Part shown: piece after piece, positions 43,304 to 64,000 of the stretch
How positions within the stretch are numbered: position 1 is the stretch's first letter
Layout of the letters: the number at the start of each line of letters is the position of its first letter
Origin: Paenibacillus sp. PvR098
GTDB taxonomy: Bacteria > Bacillota > Bacilli > Paenibacillales > NBRC-103111
DNA length: 64,000 bases
NCBI RefSeq assembly: GCF_017833255.1
Contig: NZ_JAFIBU010000001.1
Coordinates: forward strand, 3,962,501-4,026,500
Direction: 5' to 3'
Program-made: the position numbers and the translations under genes
The notes under the pieces: model-generated
The model's database searches: none
The model's input: only the letters and a program-made list of their open reading frames with translations
Told to the model about the DNA's origin: nothing

Positions 43304-43359
43304 TTGACAAGGCAGAGCAAGAAAGTTATATTTAAAAACAACAACTAAGATACTAGTAT
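43304..43359 (+). promoter_or_regulatory. Sigma-A promoter and palindrome ahead of the decarboxylase cluster
   Basis: TTGACA (43304-43309) and TATATT (43327-43332) are exactly 17 bases apart, the best promoter seen for the 20-kb block that follows. Just downstream ATACTAGTAT (43350-43359) is a perfect palindrome in a position suited to an operator. The transcript would have a leader of about 240 bases before the first gene at 43585, with no structure I recognise. Confidence 0.65.
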
Positions 43360-43584
43360 GCCGGTATTTAGCGTCATTAACCTATTTTTATTTTAGTAAA
43401 GTGATTCTAAAAAGGGGGATTCATATTATTCAATCCTATCGTTCAATGGGCACACAGTAAAATTTCATTTGGAAACCTTGATCCTCGACAAAGGCACAGA
43501 ATCGTTCTTTTTTACGGCAAATTGTAACCGCATACAATTGGCAAGGTATGAAATCGGTCTGAAATATATCTGATGGAGGATGCT

Positions 43585-43881
43585 ATGGATCAAAGAATAA
43601 AAGTGTTTATTGAATATAAAATCAGAAATGAAAAAATGACAGATTATAAAAAGATGATCCCCAAAATACAAGAGATCTATTCTGAGAAGCAGTATTCTGC
43701 TTATGAAGGCGTGGATCAGCCTGGCTTGATTGTGGAAGAATTCTTTGTTTCCAATATGGAAGAGTATTCCGAAACCAAAAACAATCGTCTTACCGGATCA
43801 GACCCTATATGGATTGATTTAGCCGACTGCATTGAGGGTGGAGCCAAAAAAATGCATATATGGGCCTTTGCGCAAATGTAA
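43585..43881 (+). CDS. Small hypothetical protein, possible dimeric alpha/beta-barrel
   Basis: A 98-residue soluble protein. RIKVFIEYKIRNEKMTDYKKMIPKIQEIYSEKQ looks like a strand followed by a long helix, then LIVEEFFVSNMEEYSETKNNRL and KKMHIWAFAQM give further strand-helix-strand: the pattern of ferredoxin-like dimeric barrels (EthD/Dabb/monooxygenase types). The family is not certain. ATG 43585 follows GGAGG at the right spacing; an in-frame ATG four codons earlier overlaps that site. It heads the UbiX-UbiD block and ends 35 bases before ubiX, so it may act on the same aromatic substrate or on a product. Confidence 0.6.
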   Translation: MDQRIKVFIEYKIRNEKMTDYKKMIPKIQEIYSEKQYSAYEGVDQPGLIVEEFFVSNMEEYSETKNNRLTGSDPIWIDLADCIEGGAKKMHIWAFAQM

Positions 43882-43915
43882 AGACTAAACATAGGCATCA
43901 GGAGAGGTGAACTAG

Positions 43916-44482
43916 ATGAAAAAAATTATTGTGGGTATGTCGGGAGCAACCGGAGCCATTTTTGGAATCCGAATTTTGGAGGTTCTAAAAGAACTGAACA
44001 TAGAATCCCATCTAGTCATGTCCAAGTGGGCAGAGACGACAATTCGTTTAGAAACGAAGTATTCCGTTGACGAGGTTCTTAAATTGGCTTCCGTTGTTCA
44101 TGGGCCGTCGAATCAGGCGGCTTCCATTTCGAGCGGTTCGTTTCGTACGGATGGTATGATTATAGCTCCTTGCAGCATGAAGACCTTGGCCGCGATCAGT
44201 GCGGGATATGCCGATTCCTTAATTGCGAGAGCTGCTGATGTGATATTGAAAGAACGGAGAAAACTAGTCATCATGGCCAGAGAAACTCCGCTCAATGATA
44301 TTCATTTACAAAACATGCTGAATTTATCTAGAGCCGGAGCGTTGATTTTACCTCCTATGCCTGCATTTTATAATAATCCGGAAACGCTAGATGATATGAT
44401 TAATCATATTGTTGCCCGTACGTTAGATCAGTTTGATATTGATAATTCATTAACGAAACGATGGATGACACAGAATGTTTAA
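43916..44482 (+). CDS. ubiX: UbiX/Pad1-type flavin prenyltransferase
   Basis: A 188-residue flavin prenyltransferase, the enzyme supplying prenyl-FMN to the five UbiD proteins encoded downstream. IIVGMSGATGAIFGIRILEVL is the nucleotide loop; SKWAETTIRLET resembles the Pad1/BsdB form; NQAASISSGSFRTDGMIIAPCSMKTLAAISAGYADSLIARAADVILKERRKLVIMARETPL is the conserved core, and LPPMPAFYNNPETLDDMINHIVARTLDQF the C-terminus. AGGAGAGGTGAACTAG precedes the ATG. Being one copy for five decarboxylases, it probably serves them all. Confidence 0.95.
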   Translation: MKKIIVGMSGATGAIFGIRILEVLKELNIESHLVMSKWAETTIRLETKYSVDEVLKLASVVHGPSNQAASISSGSFRTDGMIIAPCSMKTLAAISAGYADSLIARAADVILKERRKLVIMARETPLNDIHLQNMLNLSRAGALILPPMPAFYNNPETLDDMINHIVARTLDQFDIDNSLTKRWMTQNV

Positions 44483-44545
44483 CTTAACGGCAGCATAATC
44501 TTCTATATAAAAATACTAGAATATAACTTTGGAGGTATAACGAAA

Positions 44546-45982
44546 ATGAGCCATCCCAAAAATATGGAACAATTTATCAATGAATATGAAAAGGTGCGGC
44601 CTGAAGATGTAATTCGAATTACGAAGCCGGTCGATGCCAAGTTTGAAATTACCGCCATTGCCAAGCACTTCGAGGAGCAGAACAAATTTCCGCTCATCGT
44701 TTTTGAACAAGTGCTTAATGCCAAGGGCGAGATTTCTCCGCATCCCGTTGTCATTAATATGCTCGGTGACAGGCATAAATTAGCCTATGCCATAGGCTCT
44801 AATTATTCAGAAGTCGCGCTCGATTGGTCCAGAAAAGTCGAGCAATCCGAACCGCAAAAGCCGGTTGTAGTCCAGCATGGAGAGGCTGCTTCTCAAGAGG
44901 TTGTGCTTAAAGGCAACGATATTGATTTGCTGTCTTTACCTATCGTACATCATCACGAGATGGACCCTGGACCCTACATCACCGCAGGCATGTTTACCTG
45001 CCACGATCCCGAAACCTGGAGTGCGAACATGGCGTTTCATAGAGGCTTTATTTCCGGCCCTCGGGAAATTCGCGCCTACCTCAGTCCCGGAAGCCACAAT
45101 TTTTGGAATCTCAAGACCCATGAAAACTTAGATAAAGAAATGAAAGTAGCTTTCTGGATAGGGCATCACCCCGCACACATTATGGGGGCGCATTGTCATA
45201 TGAGCTATCCTAAGGATCATTATACTCCGTCGGGCACCTTAGCCGGACAACCGCTCAGGCTGGTTCCTTCCCAGACGCTTGGAGACGACTTTTTGGTTCC
45301 TGCGGACGCGGAGTTTGTCATTGAAGGCATTATGAGACCGGGGGATCGAGCTTTGGAGGGGCCGTTTGGCGAATACCCTCGTTATTACGGTCCTCAGCAA
45401 AAGAGCCCGGTGATGGAAGTGACGGCTGTAACCCACCGTAAAAACGCGATGTGGTATTCGTTTATGGTTGGAATCAACAATAACTATTCGTCGGTACGCG
45501 TGGAGCGGGACATGTATGCGGCTATAAAGAAAGCGGTTCCACAGGTGGAACGGGTGGCTATGCCGGTGTCAGGCTGCGGGATGTTCCACTGCTACGTCCA
45601 GCTGAAGAAAACGCATGACGGCCAACCGAAGCAAGCGATTATGGCGGCCCTGGTCGCATCCGAATGGGTCAAACACGTGATTGTCGTAGACGAGGATATC
45701 GATATTTATGATGATCGCTGGGTGCTTTGGGCCGTAGCGACCCGAAGTCAATGGGATAAAGATATATTCGTCGTTCCGGACAGCTTTGGAGCTCATCTGG
45801 ATCCGTCTGCCGGACGGAATGCCATGAGTGCCAGAGGAGGAATTGACGCTACCAGACCAGCACCGCCGGAAAGATATCCGCTTCGCTTGGATGTGCCTAC
45901 GGAAGTCAAAAGTCGGATACAGCTGAAGGATTTTATTGATGAAGAAAAACTGGCAAAGGTTCCAACGATCAATAAACATTAA
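44546..45982 (+). CDS. UbiD-family decarboxylase, first of five, divergent
   Basis: A 478-residue prenyl-FMN decarboxylase-family protein. The C-terminal half is typical: ADAEFVIEGIMRPGDRALEGPFGEYPRYYG carries the conserved Glu-Gly-Pro-Phe-Gly-Glu loop with the catalytic acid, and KHVIVVDEDIDIYDDRWVLWAVATRSQ is the late family motif. The usual N-x-G-x-Y-R prenyl-FMN segment is altered to ANMAFHRGFI, and the following section (PGSHNFWNLKTHENLDKEMKVAFWIGHHPAHIMGAHCHMSYP) is unusually His-rich. GGAGGTATAACGAAA lies ahead of the ATG. It is followed by a zinc-ribbon small protein, like the B-C-D order of bsd/vdc decarboxylase operons. Substrate unknown. Confidence 0.85.
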   Translation: MSHPKNMEQFINEYEKVRPEDVIRITKPVDAKFEITAIAKHFEEQNKFPLIVFEQVLNAKGEISPHPVVINMLGDRHKLAYAIGSNYSEVALDWSRKVEQSEPQKPVVVQHGEAASQEVVLKGNDIDLLSLPIVHHHEMDPGPYITAGMFTCHDPETWSANMAFHRGFISGPREIRAYLSPGSHNFWNLKTHENLDKEMKVAFWIGHHPAHIMGAHCHMSYPKDHYTPSGTLAGQPLRLVPSQTLGDDFLVPADAEFVIEGIMRPGDRALEGPFGEYPRYYGPQQKSPVMEVTAVTHRKNAMWYSFMVGINNNYSSVRVERDMYAAIKKAVPQVERVAMPVSGCGMFHCYVQLKKTHDGQPKQAIMAALVASEWVKHVIVVDEDIDIYDDRWVLWAVATRSQWDKDIFVVPDSFGAHLDPSAGRNAMSARGGIDATRPAPPERYPLRLDVPTEVKSRIQLKDFIDEEKLAKVPTINKH

Positions 45983-46044
45983 TCAACCCGCGCATTTGCT
46001 TGGGTCCAATGATTTTGAATGAAATTACAGGAGGGCTAATATCC

Positions 46045-46200
46045 ATGGCTGAGAAATTAAGAGAGATATGGTTTAAATGCACGGAGTGCGAAAAAGAGTC
46101 GTATTGTGGCGGAGAGTTTGGCGACGATCCCGAATCCGATGTCATGTGCCCATTTTGCCGCCATGAAATGAAGTTAAGCGAAGCTCGTCTTAAACAATAA
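46045..46200 (+). CDS. Zinc-ribbon small subunit, VdcD/BsdD-like (copy 1)
   Basis: A 51-residue protein, MAEKLREIWFKCTECEKESY onward, with cysteines arranged as CTEC, a lone C in SYCGG, and CPFC near the end, plus a His: a zinc ribbon. Hydroxyarylic acid decarboxylases (vanillate, 4-hydroxybenzoate) use a similarly small zinc-ribbon D subunit beside their UbiX and UbiD subunits, so this is probably its counterpart. AGGAGGG lies nine bases before ATG 46045. Its DNA is almost identical to that at 59348-59500 over the first 130 bases. Confidence 0.75.
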   Translation: MAEKLREIWFKCTECEKESYCGGEFGDDPESDVMCPFCRHEMKLSEARLKQ

Positions 46201-46236
46201 GGGAAGTAAACCGAAAACCAATGGGAGGCAAAGCAA

Positions 46237-47871
46237 ATGACGGATTTACGGGCGCATTTGAAAAGGCTGGAGGAGCAAGGAGATCTGGTCAAAATTTCAA
46301 GGGAAATGAATAAAGATACAGAAATTCATCCTTTGGTTCGTTGGCAATTTCGAGGATTGCCCGAATCGGAAAGAAAAGCGTTCCTATTTGAAAATGTGGT
46401 TGACAGCCGAGGCCGGAAATATAACTTTCCGGTAGTTGTCGGCGCCCTTTCGGCGTCGGAGCGAATTTATAACACCAGCTTGGGTGGAGAGGATTCAGGG
46501 GAGCGGTGGAAACATGCTTTCGATCATCCGATTCCTCCTCGTATTGTAGAATCCGGCCCCGTACAAGAGGTTGTACATATGGGTGAATCTTTACTTGAAG
46601 ATGGCGGCCTGGATGAATTGCCCGTTCCGATTTCTACCCCAGGCTTTGACAACGCTCCTTATTTTAATTCCGCGATTTGGATCGTTCGCGACCCGGAAAC
46701 AGGTATTATGAATGCAGGCGTATATCGCTCGCAAATCAAAGATCAATTAAGAACCGGGATCTATGCCTTTGGCAATAACAATTTAGCCCGGATATGGGAA
46801 AAGTGCAATGCGATGGGGGTTCCTTTACAAGCGGCGGCGGTCATTGGAGCCGATCCTAAAATTTATTTTTCGGCGATTCAATTGGCTGCTATGGGCGTAG
46901 ATGAAATGGGGCTTGCCGGTGCTCTTAACGGTTCGGCTATAGAGATGGTTCGCTGCAAAACAATCGATTTGGAGGTTCCCGCTCATGCGGAAATCGTGAT
47001 TGAAGGCACGATAAGGACCGATGTATTGGAACCGGAGGGTTCTTTTGGAGAAGCGCACGGCTACTCGGACCCAAGAGCATTAGGATTTGTTTTTGAGGCA
47101 TCCTGCTTTACACACCGCAAAAATCCCATTTATTTATCCATACTCAGTCAAGTTACGCCAAGCGAGAGCAGCAAATCCAAACAAAGCGGATATGAAGCGG
47201 ATGCTCTTCGTTTTTTGCAAAAGGAATGCGGCTTAAAGGGTGTGCTTGAAGTCGTTTTGGTGGAAGAGCTCATGAACCGGCAAATGGCGGTTATCCGAAT
47301 GAAAAAAACAAGTCCATACGAACCGAACAGCGCCTTGCATGCTCTTCTAGGCCGAAGACAACCGCCTAAATTTGCGGTAGCTGTTGACGAAGATATTGAT
47401 CCCCGTGATGCGGTGGCCGTCAATTGGGCTATTATTAATCGCTGTCAGCCCCATAGGGATGTAGAAATTGTACGCCCACGTCCACATCCGTTCGGACCCT
47501 TAAGATTGGTGGCGGACGATATTAATTATGATCGATATGATTCAAGTATCTTGATTGATGCTACGAAGAAAAGAGATCTGCCTCCGGTAGGGCTGCCCGC
47601 TAAAGAATATATGGAGAATGCCCGAAAAATATGGGAAGAGCTGGAGATGCCTTCATTGCAGCCACGCGCTCCTTGGTATGGATACTCTTTAGGATTCTGG
47701 CCGGAAGAGAGCCAGCGAGAGGCTGAATTGGCGACGCAGGGCAAATATTTTGAAACAGGGGAAAAATTATCCCAACAACAAGTTGCAGTAGAGCCAGGAA
47801 CGATACTCGCAGAAATTCGCGGTAAGTGGCAGAAGGAATATTCTGTATATGAGAGCATCAGGAAGAAATAA
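46237..47871 (+). CDS. UbiD-family decarboxylase, second of five (long type)
   Basis: A 544-residue UbiD protein of the longer type that begins LRAHLKRLEEQGDLVKISRE and HPLVRWQFRGLPESERKAFLFENV. The prenyl-FMN segment is GIMNAGVYRSQI, the metal-binding glutamate lies in HAEIVIEGTIRT, and the catalytic loop is EPEGSFGEAHGYSDP. By eye Asn182 (in GNNNLARIWEKC) stands where the family usually has the cofactor/metal-contacting histidine. Closest relative in the window is the fifth UbiD at 61543 (near 50% by eye). The ribosome site is GGGAGGC. A strong hairpin follows 25 bases after the stop, before the binding-protein genes. Confidence 0.9.
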   Translation: MTDLRAHLKRLEEQGDLVKISREMNKDTEIHPLVRWQFRGLPESERKAFLFENVVDSRGRKYNFPVVVGALSASERIYNTSLGGEDSGERWKHAFDHPIPPRIVESGPVQEVVHMGESLLEDGGLDELPVPISTPGFDNAPYFNSAIWIVRDPETGIMNAGVYRSQIKDQLRTGIYAFGNNNLARIWEKCNAMGVPLQAAAVIGADPKIYFSAIQLAAMGVDEMGLAGALNGSAIEMVRCKTIDLEVPAHAEIVIEGTIRTDVLEPEGSFGEAHGYSDPRALGFVFEASCFTHRKNPIYLSILSQVTPSESSKSKQSGYEADALRFLQKECGLKGVLEVVLVEELMNRQMAVIRMKKTSPYEPNSALHALLGRRQPPKFAVAVDEDIDPRDAVAVNWAIINRCQPHRDVEIVRPRPHPFGPLRLVADDINYDRYDSSILIDATKKRDLPPVGLPAKEYMENARKIWEELEMPSLQPRAPWYGYSLGFWPEESQREAELATQGKYFETGEKLSQQQVAVEPGTILAEIRGKWQKEYSVYESIRKK

Positions 47872-47896
47872 CTGAACGGGGGAAGCAGCCCCAAAA

Positions 47897-47938
47897 TTCA
47901 ACCTCCAATGTACAGTGAACCTCATATTGGGGGTTGAA
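47897..47938 (+). promoter_or_regulatory. Intercistronic hairpin
   Basis: TTCAACCTCCAAT (47897-47909) pairs along all 13 bases with ATTGGGGGTTGAA (47926-47938) with one G-T wobble. No U run follows, so it is unlikely to be a simple terminator; it may protect or process the mRNA so that the downstream binding-protein messages are more abundant. Confidence 0.6.
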
Positions 47939-47995
47939 CCATACCAGATGTTCCTTGTGTGAAGGTCAACTGGACCAAATGAGGGAGGGAAATGC

Positions 47996-49171
47996 ATGTT
48001 AAGGAAAATCAGGAGAACAAAAGTTAATTTTTTTATCGCCGTATTAGGCTGTGTGGTTTTAGCTGCTACCGCTTGCAGCAGCGGTCAGTCCTCCAGTCCC
48101 AGCGCAGACAATAATCAACCGCCGACACCGAACACTTCACAATCCGGAACAGCAAATGTGAATTCAGAATGGGAAAACATTGTGAATGAGGCGAAGAAAG
48201 AAGGAAAAGTGGTTATATCCGGTTCGCCGAGCCAGCTTTGGAAAAAATCGTTGGTGGATGCTTTTGAAGCGGAGTATCCGGGAATCAAGGTTGAATATAC
48301 AGGCGCCAATGGAAGGGACTTCTGGCCCCGCGTCAAAAAGGAACAGGAGCTCGGGCAATATTTGTGGGATCTTCGAGCAGGTGGAGCTAGCGGGGATACC
48401 TTCAACGCCAAAAATTCGGGGTTATTTGATCCCATTAAACCGATCATTAATGCGGAACTTACCAAAGATGATATTTGGTTTGGAGGCTATGATAACGCCT
48501 TTATTGATAAAGAAAAGCAATTTATGTTCAGTTATTTTGCTTTCGAAGAACCGACCACCTTCATAAATCGCGATATTATTCCAGAATCTGAACTATCTTC
48601 GACAAAGCAGTTATTAGATCCAAAATACAAAGGGAAAATATCGATACAGGATTTGCGTGGGGGTGCGAGCCAAGCCTCCATGGGAGCTCTTTTTGAGATG
48701 TATGGAGAAAGTTTTGTTGAGGATCTTTTGAAAAATCAGGAACTGGCCTTCACCGCGGATAAACGTCAACAAGCTGAATGGTTGGTTAGGGGCAGATATC
48801 CTATTACGATAGGGATCAGCGCCACGGAATTGGTTCCATTTATGGATCAAGGACTGGGAAAAAACGTTGTGCCTTTAAAAGATGAAAGAGCCCCTCAAGG
48901 AATGGGACTTGGCGGAATTCAGGTTTTGAAGAATGCCCCTCATCCCAACGCGACCAAAGTATATGTGAACTGGCTTCTCTCTCAAAAAGCACAGCAGCAG
49001 CTGGTGGATAACGTTCAAATGAACAGCCGCCGGGTGGATGTCAAGCCTGGGAATGAAGCGACGAAGGTAGATCCGCAGCAGAAGGATGAATATTTACCTA
49101 CCTATGTAGAACATACCGCTGAAATTCACCTTTATATCCTCAAAATGGCAGACCAATTGCTGAAAAAATAG
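47996..49171 (+). CDS. Iron(III)-type ABC substrate-binding lipoprotein, copy 1
   Basis: A 391-residue lipoprotein: signal peptide NFFIAVLGCVVLAATAC with lipobox, then a Ser/Asn/Pro linker. WENIVNEAKKEGKVVISGSPSQLWKKSLVDAFEAEYPGIKVEYTG is the family-1/FbpA-like entrance. Later APQGMGLGGIQVLKNAPHPNATKVYVNWLLSQKAQQQLV is typical of the iron(III)/thiamine class. The Tyr pair that binds Fe3+ is not evident, and the surrounding decarboxylases suggest an organic acid ligand. GGGAGGGA precedes the ATG. Its tandem paralogue follows 56 bases later. Confidence 0.9.
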   Translation: MLRKIRRTKVNFFIAVLGCVVLAATACSSGQSSSPSADNNQPPTPNTSQSGTANVNSEWENIVNEAKKEGKVVISGSPSQLWKKSLVDAFEAEYPGIKVEYTGANGRDFWPRVKKEQELGQYLWDLRAGGASGDTFNAKNSGLFDPIKPIINAELTKDDIWFGGYDNAFIDKEKQFMFSYFAFEEPTTFINRDIIPESELSSTKQLLDPKYKGKISIQDLRGGASQASMGALFEMYGESFVEDLLKNQELAFTADKRQQAEWLVRGRYPITIGISATELVPFMDQGLGKNVVPLKDERAPQGMGLGGIQVLKNAPHPNATKVYVNWLLSQKAQQQLVDNVQMNSRRVDVKPGNEATKVDPQQKDEYLPTYVEHTAEIHLYILKMADQLLKK

Positions 49172-49227
49172 CCCAGAATGCATTTGTTCCTTTGAACCTT
49201 TGGTAAAAGAATGTGAGGGGAATAAAC

Positions 49228-50409
49228 ATGTTAGGGAACGTTAGAGGGAAAAGAACTCCGTTATGGATTGCTGCAGTATTAGGTTGTATAGTGTTGGCAT
49301 CTGCCGCTTGCAGCGGACAAAATGCCAGTCCCCAATCAGACGGCAATCAAAAGCAGGCTGCTCCTGCTAACACTACACCATCAGGTTCTGCCAATGTGAA
49401 TCCAGAGTGGGAGAACATTGTGAACGAGGCGAAGAAAGAAGGAAAAGTGATTATATCCGGCTCGCCGAGCGATCTTTGGAAGAAATCATTGGCGGATGCC
49501 TTTGAAGCGGAGTATCCGGGGATCAAAGTTGAATATTCCAGAGACAATTCCAGAGACTTTTGGGCCCGGGTTCGAAAAGAACAGGAAATGGGGCAATATT
49601 TGTGGGATCTTCGTGTGGGGGGAGCTAGCGGAGATGTTTACAGCGCCAAAAATCAAGGTTTATTTGATCCCATTCAACCATTTATTAATCCGGAACATAC
49701 CGATGACAGCATTTGGTTTGGCGGGTTTGATGGGGCATTTATTGATAAAGAAAGCAAATATATGTTTAGCTTCTTAGCCTTTGAAGAGCCGACTACATTC
49801 GTAAACCGGGAATTGATCTCAGAGGCCGAGTTATCTTCAACGAAACAGTTAACGGATCCCAAATTCAAAGGGAAAATAGCGATACAGGACCCACGAGGCG
49901 GAGCGGGCCAAAGCTCGGCGGCAGCGCTCATGGAGATGTATGGAGAAGATTATATTACCAATCTTTTCAAAAATATGGACATAGGCGTAACCGCGGATAA
50001 ACGTCAACAAGCCGAATGGTTAGTCCGAGGAAAATACCCTATAACGATCGGGTTTAATGTTACTGAATTGCTGCCTTTTTTAGATCAGGGACTTGGCAAA
50101 CAGGTTGTAGCTTTACCAGATGATGTACCACCGCAAGGAATGGGGCTTGGAGGGATACAAATCATGAAAAACTCTCCTCATCCCAACGCGACCAAAGTAT
50201 ATACGAACTGGCTGCTCTCTCAAAAAGCTCAGCAGCAGCTGGTGGACAGCGTAAAATTGAACAGCCGCCGGTTGGATGTTAAGCCTGGCGATGAAAAGAC
50301 GGTATTGAATGAACAAAACAAGGATAAGTATTTCCTTCATTACAGAGAAGAATATGTGGATTTGAAATTACGTATTTTTGACTTGCAAAATGAGTTGATT
50401 AAAAAGTAG
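49228..50409 (+). CDS. Iron(III)-type ABC substrate-binding lipoprotein, copy 2
   Basis: A 393-residue lipoprotein, about two-thirds identical to the preceding copy by eye. Signal peptide PLWIAAVLGCIVLASAAC, then WENIVNEAKKEGKVIISGSPSDLWKKSLADAFEAEYPGIKVEYSRDNSRDFWARV. ATG 49228 follows GAGGGG by seven bases; the frame is open five codons earlier. Tandem duplicated binding proteins usually differ in ligand specificity. A permease gene begins 45 bases downstream, so all should be co-transcribed. Confidence 0.9.
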   Translation: MLGNVRGKRTPLWIAAVLGCIVLASAACSGQNASPQSDGNQKQAAPANTTPSGSANVNPEWENIVNEAKKEGKVIISGSPSDLWKKSLADAFEAEYPGIKVEYSRDNSRDFWARVRKEQEMGQYLWDLRVGGASGDVYSAKNQGLFDPIQPFINPEHTDDSIWFGGFDGAFIDKESKYMFSFLAFEEPTTFVNRELISEAELSSTKQLTDPKFKGKIAIQDPRGGAGQSSAAALMEMYGEDYITNLFKNMDIGVTADKRQQAEWLVRGKYPITIGFNVTELLPFLDQGLGKQVVALPDDVPPQGMGLGGIQIMKNSPHPNATKVYTNWLLSQKAQQQLVDSVKLNSRRLDVKPGDEKTVLNEQNKDKYFLHYREEYVDLKLRIFDLQNELIKK

Positions 50410-50454
50410 TTCATCTATTTCTATACAAAAATGTTGTCCCCCGGAGATGATAAT

Positions 50455-52188: not shown

Positions 52189-52207
52189 AACGGAAAGGGT
52201 GAGTTGC

Positions 52208-53653: not shown

Positions 53654-53767
53654 TTTGTTTCTTCAAAGGACCTGTTCACATAGCGTCCAATTCTCCTACA
53701 AAATCGGGACAGTAATCCTTTATATTTAGGGTCTTAGGGTCTTAGGATCAATGGAGGAGGGATTTGT

Positions 53768-54943: not shown

Positions 54944-54965
54944 CCCAGGTGAAGGAGGAAGAAGC

Positions 54966-56120: not shown

Positions 56121-57832
56121 AAGAACAGAACCGGCGTTCCATGCAAAGATTCAAAGTAGAAGCCGGAGCTATCTTTTACACTTTGATGCTGGCGGTTTTG
56201 TTAATCGTGATCGTTTACCCGCTCGGGTTACTTCTGATCAACAGCTTTGTTGTTACACTTCCCGACGGAACGGAACAAATTGGGTTCGGCAACTGGACGC
56301 TGGCCTGGTCCCAGGCCGGCATGCTCGAATCCATTATCAATACGTTTAATATGGTTTTCGTGACAATGGTTATCGTCTTCCCGATTGGTATTTTATTTGC
56401 CTGGCTTTTGACTCGTACGGACATTCCAGGCAAGGAATATTTGGATTTTTTTATGTGGTTGGCATTTTTTCTGCCTACGTTGCCTATATTAATGGGCTGG
56501 ATTCTTTTGTTGGATCCTGACTTTGGATTAGTTAATCAATTGATCATTCGTTTGTTTGGTATTGAAAAAGGACCATTTGATATTTACTCCTTCTGGGGAG
56601 TTGTATGGGCACATATTGTCATCCGTGGTGTGGCGGCGAAATATATTTTTCTTGCCCCCGCCTTCCGCAATCTTGATTCTTCTTTAGAAGAGGCTTCACG
56701 AATCTCGGGGAGAAGCATGATGGGGACTTTATTACGGATTGTTGTGCCGGTGATGACCCCAGCCATTCTTATTACTCTTATTATCTCCTCTATTCACGCG
56801 CTGGAATCTTTTGAAATCGAGAAGGTTCTGGGACCACCCTTCGGTTTTTATGTGTTCAGCACGAAGATTTACCAGTTAATCGCGGAGGAGCGGCACCAGT
56901 TCGGTGCAGCAACGGTACTGAGTATCGTAATTTTGATAGGTATGCTGCCTCTCATTTTGTTCCAGCAGTACATCAATACCAAACGTAGTTTTGTAACCGT
57001 AACAAGCCATTTTAAGCGGAACGTCTTTCGCTTAGGGGCCATGAAGTGGCCAGCTTTTATCCTCATATTTGGATTCTGTTTCATTGTTACGGTAGTGCCG
57101 ATCATTTTTATGGTCATGGGCACATTTATGAATGCATTCGGATTTTTTAACATTGAAAAGGTTTGGACCTTAAGTCATTGGAAGCAGATTCTAAGTGACC
57201 CCATTTTGGGTAAATCACTCTGGAATACAATCAAAATGGCAGGGAGCGCAGCCTTAATCGGAATGATCTTGTATACGGTTTTGGCGTATATTTCAGTCCG
57301 GAGTAAATACGCTGGAAGAGGGGTTATCGATTTTCTAACCTGGCTGCCTGCTGCTATACCGGGCATCATTTTAGGCCTTGGCATGCTTTGGATGTTCCTG
57401 GGCACCCCTTTCTTACGCCCGCTTTACGGAACGATATTTATTTTGATTATCGCGGTCCTTATTAATTCAATGACGACAGGGGTACAACTCATCAAAACCA
57501 ACATGGTTCAGTTAGGCAGAGAATTGGAAGAGGCGTCTTCGGTGTCGGGAGGTTCCTGGTTATATACCTTTCGTAGAATTATTATGCCTATTCTCGCGCC
57601 CATCCTTCTTTCTGTTGGTATTCTTACCTTTGTCACAGCATCGAGAAATGTGGCTAATATTGCCATGATTGTTACGGGAGAGAACAGACCGATTGCGATG
57701 CTGCAGCTGGATTATATGGTGGATGGAAATTACGAGGCTGCGGCGATCACTGGCGTATTTGTCGTACTTTTGACCATCGGTGTATCCATTATTGCAAAAT
57801 GGGTCGGAAAACAGATGGGCATTCGCATTTAA
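56105..57832 (+). CDS. ABC permease, two fused domains, FbpB-like (copy 2)
   Basis: A 575-residue paralogue of the permease at 50455, with the same twofold layout and about 12 helices. Coupling loops are LEEASRISGRSMMGTLLRIVVPVMTPAIL and LEEASSVSGGSWLYTFRRIIMPILAPILL. GGAGGTG lies eight bases before ATG 56105, within the ATPase gene's end. About 60% identical to copy 1 by eye; together with three binding proteins it points to duplication and specialisation of an ancestral binding protein-ATPase-permease set. Confidence 0.93.
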   Translation: MAQVVKEQNRRSMQRFKVEAGAIFYTLMLAVLLIVIVYPLGLLLINSFVVTLPDGTEQIGFGNWTLAWSQAGMLESIINTFNMVFVTMVIVFPIGILFAWLLTRTDIPGKEYLDFFMWLAFFLPTLPILMGWILLLDPDFGLVNQLIIRLFGIEKGPFDIYSFWGVVWAHIVIRGVAAKYIFLAPAFRNLDSSLEEASRISGRSMMGTLLRIVVPVMTPAILITLIISSIHALESFEIEKVLGPPFGFYVFSTKIYQLIAEERHQFGAATVLSIVILIGMLPLILFQQYINTKRSFVTVTSHFKRNVFRLGAMKWPAFILIFGFCFIVTVVPIIFMVMGTFMNAFGFFNIEKVWTLSHWKQILSDPILGKSLWNTIKMAGSAALIGMILYTVLAYISVRSKYAGRGVIDFLTWLPAAIPGIILGLGMLWMFLGTPFLRPLYGTIFILIIAVLINSMTTGVQLIKTNMVQLGRELEEASSVSGGSWLYTFRRIIMPILAPILLSVGILTFVTASRNVANIAMIVTGENRPIAMLQLDYMVDGNYEAAAITGVFVVLLTIGVSIIAKWVGKQMGIRI

Positions 57833-57875
57833 ACTGACGATGGACAAAATCGAATACATTTTAGGAGGTTTTGTG

Positions 57876-59330
57876 GTGAGTGAGACTATTTTTAATGACC
57901 TGCGTTCGTTCATTCAAGCATGTAAAGAATTAGGTGAATATCAGGAAATTAGAGGAGCAGATTGGGATAAAGAGATTGGTGCTATTACTGAAGCGGCTGC
58001 TGAATTAATTCCCACCCCCCCGTTGCTGCTATTTGATGAAATTAAAGGATATGCCGAAGGATTTCGTATGGTCACGCTTCCATTCGGATCTCATAAAAGG
58101 GTCGCATTAAGCTTAGGGCTTCCTACAGATAAATCCAAGTTAGAATTACTTCGCCTCATGGCCCGGAAGATGAAGGAAGCCGTACCGATTCCACCCGTTG
58201 AAGTCAACCATGGCCCGGTCATGGAGAATGTTCTGATGGATGAACAGATTGATTTGTTCAAATTTCCGTCTCCTGTTCATCATGAATCTGACGGAGGACG
58301 CTACATAGGAACAGGAGATTTGGTTATCAACCGAGACCCTGAGTCAGGCTTTGTAAATATGGGAACGTATAGAATTCAGGTACATGATTCCAATTTGCTT
58401 GGTTTGTGGATGAGTCCAGGACAGCAAGGCCGACAAATATGCGAACGTTATTGGGAGCGGGGTGAAAGCTGCCCAATCGTTGCTGTTTTTGGAGGCGATC
58501 CTTATACCTTTGCTGCCGCCCATACAAAATTACCATGGGTAAAATCCGAATTTGATTTTGCAGGCGGATTACAAGGTAAACCTATAGAGGTGATTAAGGG
58601 TCCTATTACCGGCCTGCCCATACCAGCTCATGCGGAAATTGCGATAGAGGGTGAGGTTCCCCCTCCCTCAGAGCAAGCACATGAAGAAGGACCGTTTGGA
58701 GAGTGGACCGGATATTACTCAGGAGGAACACGCGGTACGGGAAAATTACAGCCTGTGATTCGAGTTAAAGCGATATATCATAGAAACGATCCGATTATTC
58801 ATAATTCCAGCCCGATGTGGTCCGGCGCTCCTTTTGAAGGCTTGGAAGTTCGAGCGGGCTTGTTGTGGGATCAGTTGGAAGCAGCCGGAATTCAGGATAT
58901 TGCCGGAGTCTATTGTCATACAGCATATATGGTAGTTGTCTCGATACGCCAACGCTTCGCCGGTCATGCAAAGCAAGCAGGACTTGCCGCTGTCAGTTGT
59001 GCGGCAACGGCACGAAACGGTCGATATGTTGTGGTGGTGGATGAAGACATTGACCCTACGGATATGAAAGAAGTGCTTTGGGCTATGGAAACGAGAGTCG
59101 ATCCGATCAATGATATTCAATTAATTGATGATTGCTGGAGCACACCTTTGGATCCGCGTATGTCTCCTGAAAAACGAGAGTCGGCGAATTATACGAACAG
59201 CAGGGCCATTTTTTACGCCGTCAAACCGTTTGGATGGAAAGATAAATTCCCTCAAGTCAGCCGTACATCGAGGGAATTGAGAAATGAAATCGTTGAGAAA
59301 TACAAATTCATACTGGATTTTCCAAAATGA
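57876..59330 (+). CDS. UbiD-family decarboxylase, fourth of five
   Basis: A 484-residue UbiD protein. The start is set at GTG 57876, seven bases behind AGGAGG; the open frame extends upstream into the permease gene. Motifs: GFVNMGTYRIQVHDS, AHAEIAIEGEVPPP with the metal glutamate, EEGPFGEWTGYYSGG with the catalytic loop, and VVDEDIDPTDMKEVLWAMETR. At the position of His179 of the third paralogue it has Gln184 (SPGQQGRQICERYW), a change that could alter metal or cofactor handling if the alignment holds. It is followed by a zinc-ribbon small subunit gene 17 bases away. Confidence 0.92.
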   Translation: MSETIFNDLRSFIQACKELGEYQEIRGADWDKEIGAITEAAAELIPTPPLLLFDEIKGYAEGFRMVTLPFGSHKRVALSLGLPTDKSKLELLRLMARKMKEAVPIPPVEVNHGPVMENVLMDEQIDLFKFPSPVHHESDGGRYIGTGDLVINRDPESGFVNMGTYRIQVHDSNLLGLWMSPGQQGRQICERYWERGESCPIVAVFGGDPYTFAAAHTKLPWVKSEFDFAGGLQGKPIEVIKGPITGLPIPAHAEIAIEGEVPPPSEQAHEEGPFGEWTGYYSGGTRGTGKLQPVIRVKAIYHRNDPIIHNSSPMWSGAPFEGLEVRAGLLWDQLEAAGIQDIAGVYCHTAYMVVVSIRQRFAGHAKQAGLAAVSCAATARNGRYVVVVDEDIDPTDMKEVLWAMETRVDPINDIQLIDDCWSTPLDPRMSPEKRESANYTNSRAIFYAVKPFGWKDKFPQVSRTSRELRNEIVEKYKFILDFPK

Positions 59331-59347
59331 TAACAGGAGGGTAATCC

Positions 59348-59500
59348 ATGGCTGAGAAATTAAGAGAAATATGGTTTAAATGCACGGAGTGCGAAAAAGA
59401 GTCGTATTGTGGCGGGGAATTTGGCGATGATCCCGAATCCAACGTCATGTGCCCGTTTTGCCGCCATGAAATGAAATTGGATGAGGTTCGAATAAAGTAA
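59348..59500 (+). CDS. Zinc-ribbon small subunit, VdcD/BsdD-like (copy 2)
   Basis: A 50-residue protein nearly identical to that at 46045, differing at one residue (DPESN for DPESD) before the last eight or so. The zinc-ribbon cysteines CTEC, C and CPFC are all kept. AGGAGGG lies just ahead of ATG 59348, and even the upstream untranslated bases match copy 1. Both copies directly follow a UbiD gene (first and fourth), supporting a subunit or maturation role for this small protein. Confidence 0.75.
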   Translation: MAEKLREIWFKCTECEKESYCGGEFGDDPESNVMCPFCRHEMKLDEVRIK

Positions 59501-59563
59501 TTCATGAAAAATCATTTAGGTAAGGGTAAGGGAGAGAGAAAATTATAATGGGTGGGATGCAAA

Positions 59564-61486
59564 ATGGCCTATATTTGGGCTTATCTACAAGGAGGATCAA
59601 CACGTACCCTAACGGGAACCTGGTCTAAAGTCGTTTGGATATCGAGTGTGCTCATTGGCATTTTCCAAATTTGGACCGCTTTATATGGGAGATTAGAGCC
59701 TTATGTTCATGTGGTCCAGTTCTTATGTACGATGCTGTACTTAACGTTTTTCATATTTCGCCCAACCCAAAAAAGTAAAGACGGCCCTCCTGGTTACATC
59801 GACATCTTTCTAAGTACTCTATCTTTAATCATAGGATTGTATCTATATCTTGAAGCTCCAAGATTGACTACACGCTGGCCGTCAGTTGATCCCTTATCCA
59901 TGTGGGATATCACGTTCGGGGTCATGCTTGTGCTGCTGGTTTTGGAAGCGACTAGAAGGAGCTTAGGTCCTGGTTTGACGTCACTAGTCCTTCTGTTGAT
60001 TGCCTACTCGTTGTGGGGACATTACTTACCTGGAGAATTCTATCATCAACAAATCACGATGACGTCATTTGTTGAACAAATGGTTCTAACCTACAATGGT
60101 TTATTCAGTTCCGTAACCCGGATCGCCGCAACCTATGTATTTATGTTTATTTTGTTAGGCTCTTTTCTTGAATACTCGGGGATTACCAACTTCTTTAACC
60201 AGTTTTCTTTGGCTATTGCCGGTCGTGCTACCGGTGGCCCGGCAAAAATAGCCGTCATCTCCAGTGGACTGTATGGCAGCATTTCCGGCAGTCCTTCCGC
60301 GGATGTGGCGACAACAGGCTCCTTTACGATACCTATGATGAAAAAGATGGGATACCAGAAGAAGGAAGCAGGGGCCATTGAAGCGGTGGCCGGGACGGGA
60401 GGTAGCTTATTGCCCCCCGTTATGGGTTCCGCTGCATTTATTATGTCTGATATGACAGGGCTTGCTTATTCTGCCATCGCAGTCGCTGCGCTCATTCCGG
60501 CTTTGCTTTATTATTTTGGAGCGTATATGCAGGTGCATTTTCTTTCTGCCAGTAAAGGAATGTCCGGGGTTCCTTCTGAGGATATTCCAAGGCTGAAGGA
60601 TGTGTTATTCAAAAGCGGGTATTATTTGATACCGATCATTATTTTGGTTTATTTATTGCTGGATGGATATAGTTTGGCGTATGCAGCTGCGATCGCGTTA
60701 TTATCCACCATTGTCGTAAGCTGGTTTAAGAAAGAAACGAGAATGGGCGTTAAGCATATTTTGGATGCGATTGCTGCCGGTACCCTCCGGATTGCAGCGT
60801 TAGCTGCGGCAGTTGGAGCCGCAAGTTTAGTCGTGGGAGGCTTAACGGTAACAGGGTTGTCCAATAAGTTCCTGAGCATCATTCTGGGCATATCGGGAGA
60901 TTCCATCATTATCGCGTTATTGCTAGTGATGCTGGTTTGTCTTTTGCTTGGAATGGGTGTGCCAACTCCTGCAGCTTATATGCTTACGGCCGCCATAGGG
61001 GGGCCATTGCTGATCAGTCTGGATATCCCTTTAATGGCCGCTCACATGTTTATTATGTATTATGCCGTCTTATCGGCTATTACTCCCCCAGTTGCCGTGG
61101 CAGCTTATGTGGCCGCACCTATAGCGCAAGAAAATCCGATGTCCATCGCATGGGAAGCATGCAAAATTGGTGTTGTCAGCTTCATCATTCCGTTTATGTT
61201 TATTTTTAATCCGCCGTTGTTAATGGAAGGGGCTTGGTACGAAATTATTATAGCCTCCTGCATTGCAATCATTGCAATAACCGCTTTTACGTCTGCGGTA
61301 TCGGGATTTTTATTCCATCCAGTCAACGCTCTTAATCGAGTGCTGCTTTTGGTTACCGGTGTTCTGCTTATTTTCACGCACTGGCTGGTCATAGTGCTAG
61401 GACTGCTTATGGCTTTCATCGTTTTTGGGTTGAATTATAAACCCCGTCGTCCAAGAGCATCATTAGAAAGTAAGATAGAAACCTAA
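59564..61486 (+). CDS. TRAP transporter, fused small and large permease
   Basis: A 640-residue membrane protein of the DctQM-fused 4TM/12TM type used with TAXI binding proteins. The N-terminal four helices are the DctQ part; the DctM part contains GLYGSISGSPSADVATTGSFTIPMMKKMGYQKKEAGAIEAVAGTGGSLLPPVMGSAAFIMS and LLLGMGVPTPAAYMLTAAIGGPLL. It should drive sodium- or proton-coupled uptake of a carboxylate. ATG 59564 follows GGTGGG by seven bases. The matching binding protein gene lies at 63194, with a UbiD gene between, so import and decarboxylation are interleaved. Confidence 0.93.
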   Translation: MAYIWAYLQGGSTRTLTGTWSKVVWISSVLIGIFQIWTALYGRLEPYVHVVQFLCTMLYLTFFIFRPTQKSKDGPPGYIDIFLSTLSLIIGLYLYLEAPRLTTRWPSVDPLSMWDITFGVMLVLLVLEATRRSLGPGLTSLVLLLIAYSLWGHYLPGEFYHQQITMTSFVEQMVLTYNGLFSSVTRIAATYVFMFILLGSFLEYSGITNFFNQFSLAIAGRATGGPAKIAVISSGLYGSISGSPSADVATTGSFTIPMMKKMGYQKKEAGAIEAVAGTGGSLLPPVMGSAAFIMSDMTGLAYSAIAVAALIPALLYYFGAYMQVHFLSASKGMSGVPSEDIPRLKDVLFKSGYYLIPIIILVYLLLDGYSLAYAAAIALLSTIVVSWFKKETRMGVKHILDAIAAGTLRIAALAAAVGAASLVVGGLTVTGLSNKFLSIILGISGDSIIIALLLVMLVCLLLGMGVPTPAAYMLTAAIGGPLLISLDIPLMAAHMFIMYYAVLSAITPPVAVAAYVAAPIAQENPMSIAWEACKIGVVSFIIPFMFIFNPPLLMEGAWYEIIIASCIAIIAITAFTSAVSGFLFHPVNALNRVLLLVTGVLLIFTHWLVIVLGLLMAFIVFGLNYKPRRPRASLESKIET

Positions 61487-61542
61487 CCATGGATTTATAA
61501 CATTCATATAAATCAATCACCCTACTAGGAGGAAAAACGTTC

Positions 61543-63168
61543 ATGGCTTATCAAGATTTCAGAGAACACTTAGCAAAATTGGAAGCAGCGGGGAAACTAG
61601 TACGGATTAAAGAGGAATTCTGTAAAGATACAGAAATTCATCCGTTGGTAAGATGGCAGTTTCGCGGACTACCCGAGGAAGAGAGAAAAGCATTTATTTT
61701 TGAAAATGTAAAGGATGCTAAAGGGAACAAATACAACACTCCAGTGGTTGTAGGTGCATTAGCCGCATCCAAAGATATTTTCTGCATGTCGATGGAATGT
61801 GAACCTGGACAATCCATGCATAAAATTTCGGAAGGGCTTCGCAATCCGATTAAACCGATTTTGGTTGAGGAAAAGGACGCGCCTTGTCAAGAAGAAGTCC
61901 ATATCGGGGAAAATCTATTAGAGCATGGTGGAACAGGAGAGTTTCCTATCCCGATCTCCACTCCCGGCTTTGATTGCGCTCCTTATACGACCTATTCGCA
62001 TTGGGTGACTAAGGATCCGGAAACAGGCGTTTATAATATTGGTAATTATCGCGGTCAAATCAAAGCCCCTGATCGTACTGGTGTTTATGTTCATCCGACA
62101 CAGCATTTAGCCATGCATTGGGAAAAGTGCAGGAAGATGGGGATTCCATTAGAAGCCGCTTTAGTGATTGGAGTAACCCCCAATGTGACTTTTGCAGCGA
62201 ATACGAAAGTTCCCTATGAAGCGGACGAATATGATGTAGCCGGGGGTATAGCAGGAGAAGCGGTTAAAGTAGTTAAATGTAAAACGATTGATCTGGTCGT
62301 GCCTGCAACAGCTGAGGTTGTTTTTGAAGGAAAGATTTCAACGGAATTTATGGAGCCTGAAGCGCCATTCGGGGAAACATCAGGCTTTATGAGTCAAAAA
62401 GTAAATAATGGCGTGTTTGAAATTACAGGGATTACTCATCGCAAAAATCCGGTGTGGGCTTCGATCATCAGTCAGTTTCCGCCTAGTGAAAGCACTAAAT
62501 TACGTCAAATGTCGTTTGAACCCACATTCTTTAAGTACCTTAAATATGATTGCAATATTCCAACCGTACTTGATGTCTCGTTCCATGAATCGAGCAGCAG
62601 CTACTTTTACTGCGTGATTCAAATGAAAAAGAGCAATCCGGCTCAACCTTGGCAGGCGCTCAATGCGGCGTGCGCTTTTGATACCGGAATTGGTAAGGTC
62701 TTCATCGTAGTCGATGAAGATATAGACCCAAGAGACCCTGATTTCGTCAACTGGGCAATTAGCACCCGCTGCTTACCTGAACGAGATGTGCAAACTCGTA
62801 CAGGCAGATTGGCCGTACTTGAATATTCTGCGGTTCCTCCGCACAAGGAAGGCATGGGTGCCGACACCGTTTATCCGGGACCCAACGGTTCCTCCGCTTT
62901 AGTCATCGACGCAACTCGCAAATGGGACTATCCGCCGGTGGCCTTACCGAAGAAGGAATTCATGGAAAATGCTAAAAAGCGTTGGGAAGAACTGGGACTT
63001 CCTACGTTAAACCCGAAATCACCATGGCATGGTTATGATCTGGGTTACTGGACGGAAGAGGATGAGGAAAAAGCACAGTTAGCGGTTCGAGGGGATCATT
63101 ATGTAACAGGCGAAAGAAATAAGCAAAACCGGGTAAAGGTCGATGATACGTATAAATTAAGCAATTAA
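61543..63168 (+). CDS. UbiD-family decarboxylase, fifth of five (long type)
   Basis: A 541-residue long-type UbiD protein closely paralogous to the second copy: FREHLAKLEAAGKLVRIKEE, KDTEIHPLVRWQFRGLPEEERKAFIFENV, YNIGNYRGQIKAPDR with the prenyl-FMN segment. His188 (PTQHLAMHWEKC) is the candidate cofactor histidine. The catalytic loop reads EPEAPFGETSGFMSQ, with Ala in place of the common Gly. Late motifs VDEDIDPRDPDFVNWAISTRC and the C-terminal WEELGLPTLNPKSPWHGYDLGYW are shared with the second copy. AGGAGGAAAAACGTTC precedes the ATG. It sits between the TRAP permease and its binding protein. Confidence 0.92.
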   Translation: MAYQDFREHLAKLEAAGKLVRIKEEFCKDTEIHPLVRWQFRGLPEEERKAFIFENVKDAKGNKYNTPVVVGALAASKDIFCMSMECEPGQSMHKISEGLRNPIKPILVEEKDAPCQEEVHIGENLLEHGGTGEFPIPISTPGFDCAPYTTYSHWVTKDPETGVYNIGNYRGQIKAPDRTGVYVHPTQHLAMHWEKCRKMGIPLEAALVIGVTPNVTFAANTKVPYEADEYDVAGGIAGEAVKVVKCKTIDLVVPATAEVVFEGKISTEFMEPEAPFGETSGFMSQKVNNGVFEITGITHRKNPVWASIISQFPPSESTKLRQMSFEPTFFKYLKYDCNIPTVLDVSFHESSSSYFYCVIQMKKSNPAQPWQALNAACAFDTGIGKVFIVVDEDIDPRDPDFVNWAISTRCLPERDVQTRTGRLAVLEYSAVPPHKEGMGADTVYPGPNGSSALVIDATRKWDYPPVALPKKEFMENAKKRWEELGLPTLNPKSPWHGYDLGYWTEEDEEKAQLAVRGDHYVTGERNKQNRVKVDDTYKLSN

Positions 63169-63193
63169 AATTAGAGTAAGGGATGGGTCATAT

Positions 63194-64000
63194 ATGAAAA
63201 TAATAAGGAAATTAACCTATCTACCTTTTCTTTGTTTCATTCTTATATTGGCCGCATGCAGTAATTCAGCAAATACTTCACCGAGCGCTTCGAATAATAC
63301 ACAGGGCTCATCAACTCCAACTCCTACTGCCGGAGCAAGTAATGAGAACTCAAAACCTCAAGGCCAGCTAGAGATGAAAGATCCTATTAATCTCACTATG
63401 TTAATGGCTACGGCGGGAGGCACCTGGCAAGCACATGCGACCTCTTTTTCTGAAGCCATAAAGAAGGGGCTGCCTCCAGGCTCGACGGTTACAGTAGTGC
63501 CAGGACAGGATGGAGCCAACGCAGTACAGGTTTCCCAAGGCAAAGCGGATATCGCACTGAACATGGGACCGAGTGTGCAGTTGGCGCTTAATGGCGAAGA
63601 GCCCTTTAAAGAAAAACTAGAAAACTTAAGAGCGTTGTATACGTTTCAAACGGGCGCTTTCCAAATGGTCGTAAAGGATACAGTTCCGTATGATACGTTG
63701 GATGAAGTGATTGCAAATAAATATCCGCTAAAATTTTCCGTCAATACTCCGAATAGCTTGCATGATCTCACCATGAGAAAAGTGTTAAACGAATTTGGTG
63801 TGACCTACAATGATTTCAAGTCATGGGGCGGAGAGGTGCATCAGCTCAGCTTCGGTCCTAGTTTTGAACTGTTGGATAACCGAAAATTAGAAGGAGTATT
63901 CAGCATCGGTTTTTATCCCATACCGGCTTATATCGAAAAAGCACAGCATCACAAATTCAAGCTGCTGGGTATTAAGGATGGAAAAGTAACGGATGCTGTC
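63194..64000 (+). CDS. TAXI-family TRAP solute-binding lipoprotein, partial
   Basis: The first 269 residues of a TAXI-type binding protein; the gene runs off the window. Signal peptide LPFLCFILILAAC with lipobox, then a Ser/Thr/Pro linker. The mature fold begins INLTMLMATAGGTWQAHATSFSEAIKKGLPPGSTVTVVPGQDGANAVQVSQGKADIALNMG, characteristic of TAXI proteins that serve fused TRAP permeases, here the one at 59564. The ligand is probably a carboxylate handled by the adjoining UbiD enzymes; that is inference. AAGGGATGGGT precedes the ATG. Confidence 0.93.
   Translation, partial: MKIIRKLTYLPFLCFILILAACSNSANTSPSASNNTQGSSTPTPTAGASNENSKPQGQLEMKDPINLTMLMATAGGTWQAHATSFSEAIKKGLPPGSTVTVVPGQDGANAVQVSQGKADIALNMGPSVQLALNGEEPFKEKLENLRALYTFQTGAFQMVVKDTVPYDTLDEVIANKYPLKFSVNTPNSLHDLTMRKVLNEFGVTYNDFKSWGGEVHQLSFGPSFELLDNRKLEGVFSIGFYPIPAYIEKAQHHKFKLLGIKDGKVTDAV

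Follow-up and report, generated by a model that had tools for sequence, protein, structure and literature searches.

Several UbiD genes, one UbiX gene and interleaved importers in a probable aromatic-carboxylate island of Paenibacillus sp. PvR098

What is served by one flavin prenyltransferase (UbiX) gene, five divergent UbiD decarboxylase genes and two kinds of importer read from a single strand? The question is raised by a stretch of 64,000 nucleotides from Paenibacillus sp. PvR098 (the window; positions 3962501-4026500 of a single 4.70-Mb contig), in which the cluster runs from 43304 to the window end at 64000. Judged by gene content, the window cluster is probably the front half of a ~50-kb aerobic aromatic-carboxylate island for import, decarboxylation, hydroxylation and meta-cleavage. 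The island contains ATP-binding cassette (ABC) and TAXI-type tripartite ATP-independent periplasmic (TAXI-TRAP) importers, one UbiX, six UbiDs, three zinc-ribbon proteins, hydroxylases, extradiol dioxygenases and DmpE/F/G-type enzymes.

The cluster extends ~30 kb past the window (stretches L010 and L016), and the whole island lies mostly on one strand. To the right of the window stand a branched-chain-type ABC set, a LysR gene (opposite strand), a LigXa-type Rieske oxygenase and an alcohol dehydrogenase, and further right UbiD6, a VdcD ribbon, a second TAXI-TRAP, a major facilitator superfamily (MFS) protein and a Rieske alpha/beta pair. Beyond this pair lie an HpaB-type hydroxylase, a short-chain dehydrogenase/reductase, a cupin, an extradiol dioxygenase and DmpE-, DmpF- and DmpG-type enzymes, followed by a flavin reductase, HpaD and a second dioxygenase resembling catechol 2,3-dioxygenase (C23O). 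UbiD6, ~10 kb past the window, exceeded the cut-off of the VdcC model (665.9 vs 650), as the ribbon behind it (L010:12240-12482) did that of VdcD (52.5 vs 30). Acetaldehyde dehydrogenase (DmpF), 4-hydroxy-2-oxovalerate aldolase (DmpG) and HpaD exceeded their NCBIfam cut-offs; HpaB, the flavin reductase and the Rieske alpha/beta pair were assigned by Pfam. Names of some genes outside the window (EamA, the Tct-like set of L012, TAXI proteins except the first) are by-eye resemblances or BLAST labels. The aerobic aromatic-carboxylate island is supported because the flanking genes comprise the VdcCD pair, Rieske and HpaB hydroxylases, extradiol dioxygenases and DmpE/F/G-type enzymes.

In the proposed route, the binding proteins would catch several aromatic acids at low concentration, and the ABC and TAXI-TRAP importers would carry them into the cell. 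One UbiX would supply prenylated flavin mononucleotide (prenyl-FMN) to all UbiDs, and each UbiD type would take CO2 off its own acid, without coenzyme A (CoA) activation. The zinc ribbons might serve as activator subunits, by analogy with VdcD for VdcC. The resulting phenols or catechols would be hydroxylated by HpaB-type or Rieske enzymes, and extradiol cleavage would open the rings, with acetyl-CoA and pyruvate as end products. UbiD6 with its VdcD ribbon is expected to act on 4-hydroxybenzoate or vanillate; the five window UbiDs would act on aromatic carboxylates of some kind. The first-pass annotation had proposed a dedicated system for uptake and decarboxylation of several related aromatic carboxylates. 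Uptake with decarboxylation gained support from the flanking VdcCD pair, the hydroxylation and meta-cleavage route and the places at which the permeases occur; a separate substrate for each UbiD is what we infer.

Features of the cluster, in gene order, were as follows.
43304..43332, plus strand: promoter-like site TTGACA-17-TATATT, 43304 being the first base of TTGACA; consensus scan, 11/12 matches, predicted only and not evidence of function.
43585..43881, plus strand: 98-aa protein of unknown family, first gene; the open reading frame opens at 43573 and GGAGG precedes the ATG at 43585.
43916..44482, plus strand: UbiX flavin prenyltransferase, VdcB-like; PF02441, TIGR00421 264 bits, VdcB model 290 bits.
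44546..45982, plus strand: UbiD1, gamma type; UbiD profiles, R-E-E present, best solved relative HmfF (6h6v).
46045..46200, plus strand: zinc-ribbon protein 1, two CxxC, 62 bp after UbiD1; homologous to the ribbon after UbiD11.
46237..47871, plus strand: UbiD2, alpha type, 544 aa; UbiD profiles, catalytic-column alignment.
47996..49171, plus strand: ABC substrate-binding protein 1 (SBP1); SBP_bac_1/11/6.
49213..50409, plus strand: ABC binding protein 2 (SBP2); 68% identity to SBP1.
50455..52188, plus strand: ABC permease 1, two-domain; PF00528 in two stretches, PhnU2 176 bits, below cut-off.
52208..53653, plus strand: UbiD3, beta type; UbiD profiles, catalytic-column alignment.
53768..54943, plus strand: ABC binding protein 3 (SBP3); SBP_bac_8.
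54966..56120, plus strand: ABC ATPase with TOBE domain, sole ATPase of the set; PF00005, PF08402.
56105..57832, plus strand: ABC permease 2; 63% identity to permease 1.
57876..59330, plus strand: UbiD4, beta type; GTG start after TAGGAGG, best solved relative 7pda, E 7e-127.
59348..59500, plus strand: zinc-ribbon protein 2, behind UbiD4; close copy of ribbon 1, ribosome site included.
59552..61486, plus strand: fused TRAP membrane protein, TAXI-type, 644 aa; PF06808, 282 bits.
61543..63168, plus strand: UbiD5, alpha type, 541 aa; UbiD profiles, catalytic-column alignment.
63194..64000, extending 288 bases past the window end, plus strand: TAXI binding protein; PF16868 on the whole gene, L010:294-1388.

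By open reading frames and profile matches, all genes read from 43304 to the window end are on the plus strand. The gene content given by the first-pass annotation (UbiX, five UbiDs, two ribbons, an ABC set and TRAP/TAXI genes on one strand) was confirmed by frames and profile searches; its extent was short by the ~30 kb to the right, and it had omitted the first gene (98-102 aa).

All five window UbiDs carried the Pfam UbiD_N, UbiD and UbiD_C domains over cut-off. Their pairwise identity was 24-27%, except for UbiD2-UbiD5 (50%) and UbiD3-UbiD4 (43%). Among the genome's 12 UbiDs are an alpha group (UbiD2, 5 and 8; 48-50% identity), a beta group (UbiD3, 4, 9 and 10; 41-45%) and a gamma pair (UbiD1 and 11; 41%); UbiD12 passed the cut-off for menaquinone decarboxylase (499.1 vs 495.9). 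Catalytic columns were anchored on motifs of UbiD4, which we take to occupy the catalytic positions, rather than on Fdc1 itself. The catalytic Arg, Glu and Glu/Asp were kept in 12/12 UbiDs; in Fdc1 numbering the UbiD ionic network consists of Arg173, Glu277 and Glu/Asp282 (PMC5818171). When solved chains were compared for UbiD1, UbiD4 and UbiD5, HmfF was closest to UbiD1 and UbiD5 and 7pda to UbiD4. Against VdcC (cut-off 650) the window UbiDs scored 149-280 bits. The window UbiX scored 290 of 290 bits against the VdcB model, a borderline pass.

Recent tandem amplification of one UbiD was ruled out by the 24-50% identities in the window. A quick tree of 93 rows was built, 13/94 UbiD hits having been dropped by length. 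Among alpha types, UbiD2 grouped with a Deltaproteobacteria sequence (support 95) and UbiD8 with a Chloroflexi sequence (84), while UbiD5 fell outside the well-supported clade holding these two, with no settled placement of its own; a label for belonging to this genome has to change at least 7 times along branches with strong support. On these sequences the window UbiDs are not recent local copies, older duplications being possible.

The five UbiDs might instead form one or two heteromeric enzymes, with alpha and beta types as partners and not one acid each. Phenylphosphate carboxylase has two such UbiD-like subunits, alpha and beta. Its beta-subunit model (phenyl_P_beta, TIGR02724) was the top-scoring NCBIfam model for each of UbiD3, 4, 9 and 10, and alpha and beta types recur together in other genomes, in tandem at locus L042 and both present in L022, L036, L037 and L039. 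Complexes with three UbiDs also exist (PMC10570749). We nevertheless regard heteromers as unlikely: the phenyl_P_beta scores (UbiD3 265, UbiD4 281, UbiD9 and UbiD10 310-311 bits) lie far under the cut-off of 469, no phosphatase, kinase or ParA/MinD-like partner was found among the genes scanned, every UbiD has full catalytic residues, and alpha-beta co-occurrence is expected by chance in UbiD-rich genomes.

Zinc ribbons stand directly 3' of four UbiDs (UbiD1, UbiD4, UbiD6 and UbiD11). Ribbons 1 and 2 have 50-51 aa, two CxxC motifs each and 92% identity; 13/49 codons differ, 9 of these synonymously, and the ribosome site is common to both. Neither matched a Pfam family over cut-off, and ribbon 1, the only one scanned against NCBIfam, matched no model there (VdcD cut-off 30). 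The ribbon after UbiD6 resembles solved ShdD (E 0.0003). That after UbiD11 (62 aa, cysteine-rich, L014:6132-6320, minus strand) is homologous without gaps to the ribbon after UbiD1, the other gamma UbiD (BLASTP E 1e-6 for this one comparison, 0/2000 shuffles as good), and neither of these two resembles VdcD beyond shuffles. An assignment of ribbons 1 and 2 to VdcD was ruled out, since 422/2000 shuffles with cysteines fixed matched a true VdcD as well as ribbon 1 did and ribbon 1 had no NCBIfam match. Among 94 UbiD hits of 64 related loci, the ribbon pattern (two CxxC only) was absent from the following 500 bases, and a search of 5.8 billion proteins returned a single homologue other than itself, from a contig of 953 bp. 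VdcD activates VdcC allosterically (PMC8379154); by likeness to it, ribbons 1 and 2 would be a second zinc-ribbon family of candidate UbiD activators.

The ABC set of the window is FbpABC-type, with three binding proteins, two permeases and one ATPase. Permeases of the window type occur in at least 5 copies at four places in the genome (13/33 candidates scored): two in the window cluster and one each beside UbiD8, in L126 (genome 1088000-1103000) and in L127 (1552000-1567000). LigB dioxygenases and Rieske proteins lie beside the permease in L126 and L127, and an amidohydrolase and an RraA-like aldolase are among its neighbours in L126. L127 also holds three binding-protein-like frames.

All five non-menaquinone UbiD loci of the genome carry importer genes. 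Besides those of the island, these are a TAXI-TRAP at UbiD7, just before the window, ABC and TAXI-TRAP genes at UbiD8, a binding protein 65% identical to SBP1 at UbiD11 and a Tct-like set, named by eye, at the UbiD9/10 locus (L012). Fused TAXI-type TRAPs were found within 10 kb of a UbiD in 4/6 cases and ordinary DctM proteins in 0/12 (Fisher p = 0.005; 18/19 used, one DctM match below cut-off omitted, the 10-kb limit set with positions already known). When UbiD positions were rotated against TRAP positions, the observed number was reached in 250/20000. The UbiD7 locus has a UbiX of its own.
52..612, plus strand: second UbiX, of the separate locus that begins shortly to the left of the window with UbiD7 and TAXI-TRAP genes.
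Near UbiD8 lies a class II aldolase-like protein (L011:2014-2799, minus strand), closest to PhtC (3,4-dihydroxyphthalate decarboxylase) at 99.9 of 200 bits, below cut-off.

Could the ABC genes be an iron or phosphonate importer present by chance, the TAXI-TRAP alone serving the UbiDs? Databases name such permeases as iron(III) permeases, and PhnS2, PhnU2 and PhnT2 were among the profile matches, all below cut-off. Set against this, the five permeases found at four places each stand beside aromatic or UbiD genes, and UbiD3 and UbiD4 follow permeases 1 and 2 by 19 and 43 bp, so that a chance association seems improbable.

Carboxylation, or anaerobic turnover through CoA thioesters of the kind known for phthalate, is very improbable even though anaerobic phthalate clusters combine TAXI-TRAP, UbiX and UbiD (PMC13040137) and UbiD enzymes are described as reversible. 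Between the first cluster gene and the extradiol genes, neither a CoA ligase nor a CoA transferase was recognised (some genes judged by eye only, profiles having been run on part of the genes outside the window), and oxygenases adjoin the cluster. Of 40 solved relatives, phthaloyl-CoA decarboxylase came last for both UbiD5 (71 bits) and UbiD4 (61 bits); for UbiD1 it stood in the middle of the list (86 bits).

Known phthalate importers are of ABC, tripartite tricarboxylate (TTT), MFS and TAXI-TRAP types, and the anaerobic o-phthalate clusters of denitrifiers have TAXI-TRAP, UbiX and phthaloyl-CoA decarboxylase (PMC13040137). TAXI-TRAP, UbiX and UbiD stand together for an aromatic carboxylate there, as they do in the PvR098 cluster; the latter differs by its five to six UbiDs, interleaved ABC importer, adjoining oxygenases and lack of a recognised CoA gene. 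With the hydroxyarylic acid decarboxylase VdcBCD (PMC8379154) the island shares a UbiX that just reaches the VdcB cut-off, a VdcC and a VdcD by cut-off (UbiD6 with the ribbon behind it), and the order UbiD then zinc ribbon, whereas the window UbiDs fall short of the VdcC cut-off, ribbons 1 and 2 are of another family, and many UbiDs stand beside one UbiX. The opa cluster of Pseudomonas sp. PTH10 likewise joins a fused TAXI-TRAP, a Rieske oxygenase and meta-cleavage for an aromatic dicarboxylate, but the report as available names no UbiD, and OpaD decarboxylates after ring cleavage (PMC6362003). The naphthalene carboxylase complex has three UbiD-like proteins in one complex; unlike the PvR098 cluster, where none was recognised, it includes ParA/MinD-like and linker proteins, and it carboxylates anaerobically (PMC10570749). 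In the 5,5'-dehydrodivanillate (DDVA) pathway of Paenibacillus sp. B2 a UbiD has been proposed to act on an aromatic acid from lignin, and an extradiol dioxygenase takes part as well; there, ubiD lies outside the five-gene mhq operon, the importer is of the MFS, and the portion available describes no UbiD array (PMC12673573).

These comparisons qualify two statements of the first-pass annotation. That hydroxyarylic decarboxylase operons have one UbiD is not a general rule, because complexes with three paralogues are described (PMC10570749). That no such system has been described is weakened by the TAXI-TRAP, UbiX and UbiD phthalate clusters (PMC13040137) and the three-UbiD complex, while the exact composition did not turn up: no title or abstract start listed from open-licence literature describes one operon that combines five UbiDs with importers of two types, and none listed in searches aimed at UbiD family enlargement names such enlargement.

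With 12 UbiDs, the host genome exceeds 103 other genomes of its family (0-3), and the same holds against 59 relatives (the sets overlap). At E 1e-90 the window permease type was found in 0/103 of these family genomes. Among permeases listed with an organism name, that of Paenibacillus abyssi came closest (63%), and metagenome permeases reached 96% and 81%. Across 298 other genomes of the class, the best alpha-alignment scores were 432 and 439 bits, vs 980-1054 for the host's own three. Relatives of the alpha UbiDs occurred in 64 named loci at up to 56% identity to UbiD5, best in Chloroflexi metagenome-assembled genomes (MAGs); 18 of these loci had at least two UbiDs and 31 some importer part (no background rate; many loci incomplete). 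L039, L042 and L076, two Chloroflexi contigs and one actinomycete contig of broadly similar layout, have FbpABC-type genes with alpha and beta UbiDs, at a permease identity of ~25-29%. Conserved co-occurrence of UbiDs with importers, the check named by the first-pass annotation, gave mixed results: it is seen in these three contigs, not in the host family and not as enrichment in a UbiD-rich MAG (below).

UbiD counts ran from 1 to at least 73 in the 29 examined genomes behind the 64 loci, two of which reached the scoring limit of 73 (90 and 126 candidates). The MAGs of L020, L021, L022, L033 and L078 (uncultured Chloroflexi, Tectomicrobia and proteobacterial) included 31 UbiDs in 1.7 Mb, 59 in 4.5 Mb and 41 in the L078 genome. 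Mixed assembly is a possible cause of high counts in MAGs.

Several results weigh against an aromatic-carboxylate island with import-coupled UbiDs. The C23O-like and DmpE-like proteins did not reach their NCBIfam cut-offs, and HpaB narrowly missed its own (471 vs 480). No window UbiD passed a specific NCBIfam cut-off: UbiD1, 3, 4 and 5 passed the general UbiD cut-off only, and UbiD2 none (226 of 245 bits, general UbiD). The nearest solved relatives of SBP3, the sole binding protein searched, bind iron or pyridoxal phosphate, as weak matches. In the 59-UbiD Tectomicrobia MAG (G355), importers of families like those of the host genome were found in 5/17 UbiD windows vs 3/13 without UbiD (as drawn, 3/13 UbiD windows and 5/17 controls, four of the controls also holding a UbiD). 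No UbiD was seen at 22 distant permease loci in other genomes of the phylum, a weak control at 3-5 kb each. Because the 59-UbiD genome showed no enrichment, importer coupling appears to be a trait of the host genome and some loci elsewhere, not of UbiD enlargement generally.

The cluster is real, coherent and unusual. Its parts and logic (import, prenyl-FMN decarboxylation, ring cleavage) are known, as in anaerobic phthalate clusters and VdcBCD; new are how many UbiDs there are and how diverse they are, the presence of just one UbiX, the mixed importers with their interleaved ABC genes, and the second ribbon family. We tentatively suggest, as a possibility short of an even chance, a modular import-coupled decarboxylase set, in which one UbiX would serve many UbiDs, several of which have a binding protein or permease as neighbour, and ribbons of at least two families would be tied to particular UbiD types and copyable between them, an example being ribbon 2 after UbiD4, which closely copies the ribbon that follows UbiD1. 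Such a set might be the small end of a wider uncharacterised UbiD enlargement (59 in the 4.5-Mb Tectomicrobia MAG, at least 73 in two larger MAGs).

Detailed characterisation exists for only a few UbiD enzymes (PMC8988006). Five or six UbiDs beside several binding proteins would allow acids, importers and decarboxylases to be matched directly, and the second zinc-ribbon family offers a candidate UbiD activator. UbiD enzymes could help to convert mixtures of lignin- or plastic-derived acids into phenols or catechols. Judging by the genomes that carry dozens of UbiDs, UbiD chemistry may be a larger business in uncultured bacteria than literature searches showed.

Intergenic gaps inside the window cluster were at most 63 bp, except for 124 bp before SBP1 and 114 bp before SBP3, and of 7 terminator-like sites on the plus strand none (0/7) lay inside an intergenic gap. 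Because the gaps are short and hold no terminator-like site, transcription of the window cluster as one long unit is possible. The first-gene protein had no Pfam match over cut-off; its three non-self homologues (43-86% identity) do not indicate a function. A transposase-like frame with integrase core domains (window 40808-41482, minus strand) lies ~2 kb left of the cluster. GC content was 44.8% in the cluster vs 49.7% in window 1-40000, other stretches of the genome spanning 42 to 52%. At the right end of the island are a lone FAD-synthetase domain (L016:9455-10048) and an extra RibBA (L016:10881-12101; together genome 4054855-4057501), the latter one of three 3,4-dihydroxy-2-butanone 4-phosphate (DHBP) synthases in the genome; together they would perhaps provide a dedicated flavin supply.

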